A DNA stretch of 64,000 nucleotides, taken from assembly GCF_000422285.1 (NCBI RefSeq), contig NZ_AULM01000006.1, positions 124,001 through 188,000 on the forward strand, in the 5' to 3' direction. The notes under the pieces are model-generated. The model did not search any database. It saw nothing but the letters and a program-made list of their open reading frames with translations, and was not told the DNA's origin. Origin of the DNA: Desulfatiglans anilini DSM 4660 (GTDB lineage Bacteria > Desulfobacterota > DSM-4660 > Desulfatiglandales > Desulfatiglandaceae). Below, one piece after another: positions 14,791 through 35,797 of the stretch. Within the stretch, counting starts at the first letter, position 1, and each line of letters starts with the position of its first letter. Position numbers and translations under genes: made by a program.

Positions 14791-15840
14791 ATGGACATGA
14801 AGAGGGATTACTATGAGGATGTACAGCTGTTCAGTTCCGGCGTGGTCGTTTTCTGGTTTCTTTGTCTGATCGCCTTCCTGGTCCTTTTCCCGTTATTCGC
14901 TAAAAACTACTACATCTACATGGCCAACTACATGGCCATCAACATCCTCGTGGCGGTCGGTCTGAATCTCCTGGTCGGGTACACGGGGCAGATCTCGCTG
15001 GGGCATGCTGGGTTCTTCGCCCTGGGCGCCTATGGCACCATCATCCTGATGGCGGAGGTCCATCTCCCTTTCATCCTGGCGCTCCCCGCCGCGGCGCTCG
15101 GCGCGGCGCTCTTCGGATTTCTCCTGGGCCTCCCGGCCCTGCGCCTGGAAGGCCCCTATCTTTCGATCGCGACCCTCGGTTTCGGCCTGACGATCACCCA
15201 GGTGATCGGGCGGATCGAGCTGTTCGGGGGGCGGCAGGGGCTGCACACCCCGGACCTCGTCATCGGTCCCTGGCACCTGGACTCCGACCGCGATTTCTAC
15301 TATCTGCTGGTGATTATCACGGTCCTCCTGACGCTGGCCGCACGCAACATCATCAAGACGAAAGTGGGCCGCGCCTTCATCGCCCTGCGCGATGCGGATG
15401 TCGCCGCTGAAACGATGGGTGTGAATCTGACGCTCTACAAGACGCTCGCCTTCGCCGTGAGCGCCTTTTACACCGGCATCGCCGGGGGGCTGTACGCCTT
15501 CGTCCTCCGGTTCATCGAGCCGGAGATGTTCGGTCTGCTCATGTCCATCATCTTTCTGGCCATGGTGGTCGTTGGAGGGCTCGGGTCCATCTTCGGGTCG
15601 ATCGCGGGGGCGTGTCTCCTCAGTTGGCTCGATCTCGAACTGCGCAACATCCTGAGCATCCCCTATCTGGGGGAATGGCTTCAGGTGCTTTCGCAGAGCT
15701 ATTTTTCGATCACCGGTGTTTCAAACATCCAGTTCATCGTCTATGGACTGATCATGGTCCTGATCATGCTCTTCGAGCCGCTCGGGATCTACGGGTTCTG
15801 GATTCGAAGCAAGCTGTACTGGCGCACCTGGCCCTTCTAG
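14791..15840 (+). CDS. livM: Branched-chain amino acid-type ABC transporter permease (LivM family)
   Basis: 349 residues with 8-10 hydrophobic helices. The motif GLNLLVGYTGQISLGHAGFFALGAYG near residue 55-80 and AMVVVGGLGSIFGSIAGA near residue 255 are the LivM signatures. LivM pairs with LivH in the membrane; HAAT-type systems carry branched-chain amino acids, urea, amides or aromatic acids. It is followed by LivH, a binding protein, two ATPases and an acyl-CoA synthetase, which hints that the cargo is a carboxylic acid to be CoA-activated. An intergenic structured repeat of about 280 bp separates it from livH, unusual within a transporter operon. Confidence 0.93.
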   Translation: MDMKRDYYEDVQLFSSGVVVFWFLCLIAFLVLFPLFAKNYYIYMANYMAINILVAVGLNLLVGYTGQISLGHAGFFALGAYGTIILMAEVHLPFILALPAAALGAALFGFLLGLPALRLEGPYLSIATLGFGLTITQVIGRIELFGGRQGLHTPDLVIGPWHLDSDRDFYYLLVIITVLLTLAARNIIKTKVGRAFIALRDADVAAETMGVNLTLYKTLAFAVSAFYTGIAGGLYAFVLRFIEPEMFGLLMSIIFLAMVVVGGLGSIFGSIAGACLLSWLDLELRNILSIPYLGEWLQVLSQSYFSITGVSNIQFIVYGLIMVLIMLFEPLGIYGFWIRSKLYWRTWPF

Positions 15841-15897
15841 CTCGTTTCCATCCGGAAAGGGTCTTTTTGACCAATCTCGGCGTCAATCTGCACGTTT

Positions 15898-15934
15898 GCT
15901 TGTGCGGCGACCTGCAGGTCGCCTCCGCACAAGC
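15898..15934 (+). repeat. Conserved long hairpin in the core of copy A
   Basis: Ten perfect base pairs (15898-15907 with 15925-15934) enclose an inner seven-pair palindrome (15908-15921). The copies at 29.5 kb and 35.7 kb keep both stems despite sequence changes; for example the third copy has TCTGCAGA at the centre. Confidence 0.8.
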
Positions 15935-15957
15935 GTTTGATTTCCTTGATCTTGGCC

Positions 15958-16061
15958 AAACCGGGACCCGCCGCGAAGCGGTGGGACTGAGCACCCGAAG
16001 GGTGTGAAGAAACCGGGACCCGCCCCGCAGGGGTGGGACTGAGCACGCGCAGCGTGTAAAG
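15958..16061 (+). repeat. Two tandem 52-nt units, each with two hairpins
   Basis: Unit 1 is 15958-16009, unit 2 is 16010-16061. First hairpin: CCCGCCGC-GAA-GCGGTGGG in unit 1 and CCCGCCCC-GCA-GGGGTGGG in unit 2. Second hairpin: GCACCC-GAA-GGGTGT and GCACGC-GCA-GCGTGT. Each stem differs by one flipped base pair, both sides changed. Confidence 0.85.
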
Positions 16062-16134
16062 AAAAATCCTCATTTCCGGATTGAAAACTGGGTTCTACGG
16101 GGAAATCATTCTTTTCCGGAAGCAGGAGAAGGAT

Positions 16135-17010
16135 ATGCTCGATTTTCTGCAGATGCTCGCGAGCGGTGTGGCCGTGGGGAGTTCCTACGCCCTGATGGGC
16201 CTCGCCATGGTCATCATCTACAAGACGAGCGAGGTGGTCAATTTCGCGCAGGGGGAGATGGCGCTCCTCTCCGTCTTCATGACCTACATGGGGCTCGAGT
16301 TTTACGGCGTCCCCTTCTACGCGGCTTTTCCTGCAGCGCTCCTGTTCGCCCTTTTCCTCGGGTTTTTTCTCGAGTTTGCGGTCCTGCGCCGTGCCAAAGA
16401 GCCGAATACCCTCGGGATGATCATCATCACCATCGGCCTCGAGATGATCCTGATGGGGCTGGTTTCCTGGAAGTTCGGGGCGGACCCGAAGACCATGCCC
16501 TTTCCGGTCTCGCCCTACGAAAGCCTGATGATCGGCGATGTCTTCATCAGTGCGCTCGAAGGGTTGACGTTCGTGGTGGCCCTGACGGTCATGGCGGTGC
16601 TCTTTCTCTTTCTGAGATATTCCAAGCTGGGCGTGGCCATGAAGGCCACCCAGCAGAACCCCGTCGCCGCGCGCCTGATGGGCATCCGCACCAACCGGAT
16701 CCTCATGATCACCTGGGGGATCTCGTCGGTGGTCGGCGGCCTCGCAGGGATTCTGATAGCGCCGACCACCATGCAGCCCTACATGATGTGGGACCCCATG
16801 CTCAAGGGCTTTGCCGCGGCCGTCCTCGGAGGGATGACGTCGCTGCCGGGGGCCGTGTTCGGCGCTTACCTGATCGGAGTCATCGAGAACCTCTTCGGCG
16901 GATACGTCTCGATCGAGTTCAAGTCCTCGGTCGCTTTTTTCATCATCGTCCTGGTCCTCTGTTTCAAACCGAGCGGTCTGTTCGCCCGGCATTATGTGAA
17001 GAAGGTGTGA
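16135..17010 (+). CDS. livH: Branched-chain amino acid-type ABC transporter permease (LivH family)
   Basis: 291 residues with eight or so membrane helices. GVAVGSSYALMGLAMVIIYKTSEVVNFAQGEMALL at the start and AVLGGMTSLPGAVFGAYLIG near residue 240 are LivH hallmarks. The ATG at 16135 has AGGAGAAGG upstream; the frame extends back to a TTG at 16081, but that stretch is part of the interspersed repeat and should not be translated. It forms the membrane pore with LivM. Confidence 0.94.
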   Translation: MLDFLQMLASGVAVGSSYALMGLAMVIIYKTSEVVNFAQGEMALLSVFMTYMGLEFYGVPFYAAFPAALLFALFLGFFLEFAVLRRAKEPNTLGMIIITIGLEMILMGLVSWKFGADPKTMPFPVSPYESLMIGDVFISALEGLTFVVALTVMAVLFLFLRYSKLGVAMKATQQNPVAARLMGIRTNRILMITWGISSVVGGLAGILIAPTTMQPYMMWDPMLKGFAAAVLGGMTSLPGAVFGAYLIGVIENLFGGYVSIEFKSSVAFFIIVLVLCFKPSGLFARHYVKKV

Positions 17011-29354: not shown

Positions 29355-29586
29355 TATCCATCCGGAAACGATTTCGCGGTATAACCGGGTTTCCATTTGG
29401 AATGGAGGTTTTTTCCCTCCCTTTGGGTGCGCAGTCCCGCCGTTTAGCGGTGGGTCCAGGCCTGGCTGATATCTATGAAATAAAACGTTTGCGCGGAAAC
29501 GACCTGGTGGTCGCCGCACAAGCATACGTGCAGATCGATGCCGAGATTGGCAAAAAAGAGCATTTCCGGCTGAAAACGAAGTCGAC
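29355..29586 (-). repeat. Interspersed structured element, copy B
   Basis: In reverse complement this matches copy A closely: the core (CAATCTCGGCATCGATCTGC, then GCTTGTGCGGCGACC), the long hairpin, one two-hairpin unit (CCCACCGC...CGGCGGG and CACCC-AAA-GGGAGG) and the end CCGGTTATACCGCGAAATC. The terminal sequences are TATCCATCCGGAAA and TTTCCGGCTGAAAA. It lies between the divergent pilT and panB genes. The rest of 29154-29656 is non-coding. Confidence 0.85.
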
Positions 29587-35387: not shown

Positions 35388-35797
35388 TCAGGAAACTGGG
35401 TTGTACCGGGAAATCATTTCCGGATGGAAACGAGTCTCGCTTGGATACGGGTTCTTTGTTGATCCGAAGCGTGTGTCCTCGTTGGAGGCGGCAGGTGCAT
35501 AGTCCCACCGCTCAGCGGCGGTTACCGGTTTCTTGACTCGCTTTGCGCGCTCAGGTCCACCCTGGAGGGGTAGGTCCCGGTTTCTGCATACGCTTTGCGT
35601 GCTCAGCCCCACCCCTCCGGGGAGAGACCCGGTTGTTTGACAAGCTCCGGGTGCCGAGTGCCACCCTTGCGGGGAGGGGCCCGATAGGCCTATATGAAAA
35701 AGCCAAGGGCCTGCGCGAAGGGGATCTGCAGACCGCTGCACAAGCAAACGTGCCGATGGAAGCCGAGGCCGGCAAAAAAGCGTCATTTCCCGATGGA
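35388..35797 (-). repeat. Interspersed structured element, copy C, with about four two-hairpin units
   Basis: The largest copy. On the plus strand it starts with the end segment GAAACTGGGTTGTACCGGG, then TTTCCGGATGGAAA (35417-35430), then four divergent two-hairpin units (about 35480-35690) and finally the core in reverse (35695-35780). Loops and stems vary but pairing is largely kept, for example TCTCCCC-GGA-GGGGTGGGG. Unlike copies A and B, the end segment is inverted relative to the core. It lies between the divergent GNAT and tamA genes; 35373-35835 holds no other feature. Confidence 0.8.

Follow-up and report, generated by a model that had tools for sequence, protein, structure and literature searches.

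Tandem 52-nucleotide hairpin units between livM- and livH-like genes of Desulfatiglans anilini belong to a highly repeated MITE-like element

Two adjoining 52-nt units lie between co-directional genes of Desulfatiglans anilini DSM 4660 that we take, from knowledge of such sequences rather than from a profile search, to encode LivM-like and LivH-like ABC transporter permeases. Each unit can form two hairpins, and the units differ by changes that affect both members of a base pair. The first-pass annotation concluded that selection keeps the fold in RNA or single-stranded DNA, and it suggested probing the livM-livH transcript. The locus raises the question of whether the fold is maintained and, if so, whether it serves the transport genes or something else. 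Positions are those of the window, meaning the whole 64,000-nt stretch analyzed, and the features needed first are as follows.

14791 to 15840, plus strand: LivM-like ABC transporter permease gene, upstream (presumed from its sequence)
15958 to 16009, plus strand: hairpin unit 1, with hairpin A at 15967-15985 and hairpin B at 15991-16005 (sequence, folding)
16010 to 16061, plus strand: hairpin unit 2, with hairpin A at 16019-16037 and hairpin B at 16043-16057 (sequence, folding)
16135 to 17010, plus strand: LivH-like permease gene, downstream, with an ATG start at 16135 behind AGGAGAAGG (presumed from its sequence)

The repeat was recovered as first described: the two units adjoin with no indel between them, and TRF reported a period of 52 at 15958-16064 (2.1 copies, 87% matches). 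Hairpin A reads CCCGCCGC-GAA-GCGGTGGG in unit 1 and CCCGCCCC-GCA-GGGGTGGG in unit 2, while hairpin B reads GCACCC-GAA-GGGTGT and GCACGC-GCA-GCGTGT, respectively. One C-G/G-C flip per stem, as had been noticed, accounts for four of the seven differences between the units. The remaining changes fall mainly in the triloops, as also claimed, affecting the middle base of each (two changes), plus one linker base (16006/16058). When the 104 nt were folded as RNA, exactly the two proposed hairpins formed in each unit (plus strand, -56.2 kcal/mol, z = -5.5, with 0 of 200 shuffles as good), and the DNA fold of the same strand reached z = -4.2. The minus strand folds worse (z = -1.95) because the G.T wobble in each stem turns into C.A there. 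The repeat and the fold at 15958-16061 are real and well beyond chance. Most other bases are identical between the units, which reflects common descent, and two units alone therefore cannot demonstrate selection.

The units are not a local feature of the livM-livH gap but part of a larger, highly repeated MITE-like element. When the own genome was searched at the DNA level with 221 bases around the units, at least 44 strong matches were obtained, and their alignment delimits an element of about 270 bp whose left module starts GTTTCCATCCGGAAATGG and whose right module ends CATTTCCGGATGGAnAC. The two ends are inverted repeats of each other in the multicopy alignment (GTTTCCATCCGGAAATG on the left, CATTTCCGGATGGAnAC on the right), with the end pattern GTTTCCATCC...GGATGGAnAC. 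The window contains the following copies and parts.

15844 to 16125, plus strand: MITE-like element in the livM-livH gap (left module, two units, right module), from the multicopy alignment and the orthologous sister-species site; the right boundary near 16125 is approximate, the right terminal repeat having decayed
15844 to 15862, plus strand: left terminal inverted repeat GTTTCCATCCGGAAAGGGT, consensus GTTTCCATCCGGAAATGGT, from consensus matches and 8-bp duplications beside other copies
15845 to 15957, plus strand: left module, BOX-A-like, with an internal palindrome around GCGACCTGCAGGTCGC, 75-82% conserved in relatives of the same order
16062 to 16125, plus strand: right module, BOX-C-like, with the decayed right terminal repeat TTCCGGAAGCAG, where other copies end CATTTCCGGATGGAnAC
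29355 to 29576, minus strand: further MITE copy with one unit, its unit number equal in the sister species
35492 to 35797, minus strand: old, diverged four-unit MITE copy that the sister species lacks

The terminal-repeat consensus, with up to three mismatches, matched 325 sites in the own genome, some of which are right ends, versus none for the reversed control. Sixty left modules in 637 kb extrapolate to approximately 440 per genome. Copies carry 0, 1, 2, 3, or 4 units in the layout left module-(unit)n-right module, and many lack any unit and have the interior TTGGCCAAAAATCC. Copy and unit counts are incomplete where assembly contigs end in or near the element (C1:1, C6:285, C7:1, C21:259). 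A related element with zero units is widespread in the order, with matches in 27 of 61 genomes, mostly over the first 110 bases and at 75-82% identity. The palindrome of the left module (window positions 15900-15935) shows compensating arm differences between species, GCGACC..GGTCGC here and GCGTAC..GTACGC in relatives. MITE subtypes of about 140 bp in relatives (L257, L259, L260, L262, L263) have the same TGTCCATCC/TTTCCATCC ends around a different palindromic interior, AATAACCACAGG...CCTCGGATTATT, and look as if identical ends repeatedly capture different hairpins.

Intact-end copies in the own genome and in relatives are flanked by target duplications of 7-9 bp, modally 8 bp and often resembling CTAnnTAG (8-bp examples are CTAGGTGG, CTACTTAG, and CTAAGTAG). 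Among 89 copies, 53 have four or fewer matching bases and hence no clear duplication, and none is recognizable at the livM-livH copy. Comparison of contig C6 of the own genome (G000) with the syntenic stretch of the sister species (G001), the sole other genome of the genus, revealed two insertions private to one species, the matching site in the other being empty: C6:49725 is absent in G001, and G001:501439 is absent in G000. The livM-livH copy is common to both species. An autonomous element with these ends was found neither in 837 kb of the two genomes nor at ten candidate loci in relatives, and the search yielded only more MITE subtypes with identical ends. In G001, a transposase gene that is presumably IS630-like, judged from its sequence rather than from a profile search, immediately adjoins the orthologous livM-livH MITE at its right end (about 558.4k, L199).

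Unit number varies between the two species at orthologous sites. The livM-livH MITE holds two units in G000 and zero in G001, an exact 104-nt difference, the junction reading GGCCAA-AAATCCTC in G001 versus GGCCAA[104 nt]AAATCCTC in G000. Exact one-unit differences were found in two of four other inspected orthologous copies (C6:96940, one unit versus two in G001; C6:106475, two versus one). C6:153355 has one unit in both species, and the decayed copy C6:22463 has kept its unit in both.

The unit also occurs apart from this element. Units were collected in 61 related genomes with a covariance model (R1) built on hairpin A plus flanking sequence. It detected them in 18 of these genomes and in 14 of 40 genera, and it found at least 112 units in the own genome; at a stricter threshold, 19 of 85 genomes of the order contained units. 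Single units stand alone in G009 and G037, and free tandem arrays with units of roughly 56-62 nt occur in G019 and G057. In G005, G026, G022, and G057, a MITE of this family carries the unit reversed, inserted at ATCAAGG^AAATCAAGG or at the corresponding site, and G005 and G057 also contain the empty MITE version for this insertion. One MITE of G018 holds two different units. Unit junctions have no duplication and lie at G^A(A), or at C^AA in the genus studied here, summed as (G/C)^A(A), with no fixed longer motif beyond it. As the unit is found alone, in tandem, or reversed within the MITE, at (G/C)^A(A) and without duplication, it is likely a separately mobile, REP-like module. The exact pattern of the own species had no match in the named genome collection, while the relatives' exact pattern matched MAGs of Desulfobacterales, Desulfobacteraceae, and "Deltaproteobacteria."

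Several further arrangements were observed among relatives. A free array of five units between two genes (L103, G019:C72:64279-64540) falls within a long open reading frame that runs on into the downstream gene; GNRA-type tetraloops (GTAA, GCAA) cap its second hairpin, in which tandem G.A pairs are also possible. A second unit type of about 48 nt, AAACCGGGGACCCATCC-GGA-GGATGGGGAGTCCGAGCAAAGCGAGGAC, forms tandem arrays in G018 and other genomes (L123, L186, L279) and has the AAACCGGGGACCC start in common with the 52-nt-type unit. Two units of G020 (L109, L177) have the identical left flank GATAACGCCTTGA, and the unit there may belong to a longer repeat.

Whether the fold is under selection was addressed at two depths of divergence. 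Across genera, 96.9% of the pair cells of hairpin A are standard in 52 distinct sequences, a count that leans toward this structure, as the alignment was fitted to the hairpin model. Two-sided changes occupy 44 cells, compared to 17.5 ± 4.1 in shuffles (0 of 500 reach 44), and the covariation score is 0.276, compared to 0.134 ± 0.012 (0 of 500), with slid controls at 0.052 or below. The variable pairs are UA/CG at one position and CG/GC/AU/UA at the other, stem length changes on both arms together between genera, and the strand-specific G.U pair is kept in 38 of the 52 sequences. A small MAFFT alignment of 11 unit types agrees on the covariation of hairpin A. As the shuffles leave relatedness in, this covariation supports, rather than proves, selection on hairpin A across genera. 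The length and sequence of hairpin B vary from genus to genus, and a hairpin forms in 14 of the 15 unit types folded; the version in G037 is shifted and weak, and L102 of G018 is without one.

Within the genome, the pattern differs. Among 125 indel-free units from the own genome and G001, only a single pair in each stem flips, mainly between two states: in hairpin A, GC occurs with a GAA loop and CG with a GCA loop, and in hairpin B, CG occurs with GAA and GC with GCA. All four combinations of A and B states are present (36, 23, 20, and 15 units). The two units of the livM-livH gap therefore record one historical flip per stem and not repeated compensation. The other 12 stem pairs contain 184 mutated cells, of which 173 changed on one side only and 6 are compensated (shuffle mean of 2.3, maximum of 8 in 500). 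Stem columns are mutated less than unpaired columns (6.5% versus 10.0%), which may reflect some continuing constraint or only composition. The original claim that selection keeps the fold is supported for the mobile family, through the cross-genus covariation of hairpin A, and is weak within the genome, where stem mutations at the other pairs are mostly uncompensated. A role of the fold in an RNA or single-stranded DNA mobility intermediate is possible.

These observations bear on two explanations besides the one that we favor and on a narrower version of the latter. The hairpins could be a cis-acting RNA of the liv operon, kept because they tune stability or processing of the livM-livH mRNA. 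The element indeed lies in the sense direction between its co-directional neighbors and has a strong RNA fold, and BOX, ERIC, and BIME elements can affect cotranscribed genes (PMC3049150). However, the orthologous site in the sister species is free of units, and the hundreds of copies elsewhere are oriented at random to genes (in tandem gene pairs, 11 same and 9 opposite, by a rough gene set), with position classes that, by the same rough set, track the intergenic gaps of the genome. A function in this transcript is therefore unlikely. Stem mutations being mostly uncompensated also speaks against it, as does the lack of any Rfam 15 match above the gathering threshold in the window and 20 related loci. 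No terminator-type U-tract follows the hairpins on the sense strand at livM-livH, and a reading as a transcription terminator was rejected for the same reason. We regard the liv RNA explanation as very improbable. It is unlikely, although less so, that the fold is not selected at all and that copying and gene conversion multiplied two ancestral versions of the hairpins, the flips being two historical events counted many times. The single two-state pair per stem, linked to the loop base, and the decay of other stem positions would fit this, all four A/B combinations are what recombination predicts, and template-switch correction in palindromes could yield such pairs without selection. It does not readily accommodate the cross-genus alternatives at neighboring pairs (CG/GC/AU/UA and UA/CG), the paired changes in stem length, or a hairpin B that differs between genera and yet folds in all but one of the unit types tested, weakly and shifted in G037. 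The fold is conserved between genera while intragenomic copies mostly decay uncompensated, and it therefore probably serves copying of the element, through a single-stranded DNA or RNA intermediate, and not the transport genes or their mRNA.

We consider it likely that the element is a composite MITE with a separately mobile, captured, REP-like hairpin-pair module, in the layout left module-(unit)0-4-right module. Its ends and duplications suggest that the MITE is a short noncoding DNA transposon moved in trans by a DDE-type transposase. A REP-like hairpin pair would have been captured by it and then multiplied along with it, and the whole-unit steps point to changes in unit number through recombination, unequal or ectopic, among copies. 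An enzyme recognizing the folded single strand may move the unit itself, with selection keeping both hairpins at that step. Most simply, one single strand would be selected, as suggested by the strand-specific wobble and by cross-genus covariation together with within-genome decay, and copies would decay largely neutrally once inserted. That selection acts on the copying of the folded strand is, in our judgment, about evenly balanced.

Within the composite-MITE explanation, a Y1 transposase (IS200/IS605-like or RAYT) could move the unit as a REP or PATE element. Hairpins with a strand-specific mismatch, duplication-free insertion at a short (G/C)^A(A) target, and tandem arrays speak for this, as do Y1 genes, found in all 15 genomes searched. 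Nevertheless, neither a GTAG nor a CGTC tag was read at a conserved end of the units, the end hairpins of IS200-like elements look different from the unit hairpins, and no matching Y1 ends were seen. Consistent flanking units were likewise absent from the 34 Y1 loci read, the exceptions being a weak match (L141) and a MITE near the C44 gene, which is missing in the sister species. Y1/RAYT transposases were not retained as mobilizers on the basis of these 34 loci, and we consider this version of the composite MITE doubtful. No enzyme mobilizing the MITE or the unit was found in the regions examined. Somewhat less doubtful, but still tentative, is the suggestion that the hairpin pair represents a previously undescribed kind of short mobile element, separate from GTAG/CGTC REPs, in which a putative enzyme would read the two-hairpin fold of one strand on transfer into (G/C)^A(A) sites, with the widespread MITEs as carriers for its multiplication.

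The location between livM and livH matters little, as it is one copy among hundreds, and the locus cautions against taking paired flips in two tandem units as proof, on their own, of selection on RNA. Exact gain or loss of units at orthologous sites offers a natural system for asking what moves REP-like hairpins that lack a RAYT. REP families are defined by a GTAG or CGTC tag, and the GTAG families are associated with RAYT genes (PMC3733652). Like REPs and BIMEs, the units are short, GC-rich, interspersed hairpin repeats found as singlets and in tandem clusters, sometimes nested in longer palindromes (PMC3733652), but they have no such tag, contain two different hairpins per direct unit, and had no associated RAYT. 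The element is therefore classed with composite MITEs and not with REPs. With MITEs it shares noncoding sequence, inverted ends, target duplications, high copy number, and empty sites in a sister species; it differs in carrying a variable tandem array and in having no autonomous partner in the regions searched. A description of such an element in Desulfobacterota was not found in the literature. The closest architecture is that of the MITE-like BOX elements of Streptococcus pneumoniae and S. suis, boxA-boxB(n)-boxC, and one and the same boxB has different end modules around it in S. suis (PMC3049150). The likeness, in architecture only, lies in terminal inverted repeats, target duplication, and variable tandem hairpin modules between fixed ends, whereas here the unit is 52 nt with two hairpins, other genera have it singly and also inverted, and the target duplication is 8 bp and resembles CTAnnTAG. 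A composite MITE resembling BOX is thus seen in bacteria remote from the streptococci, and its internal hairpin module was met in other genera as a unit in its own right.
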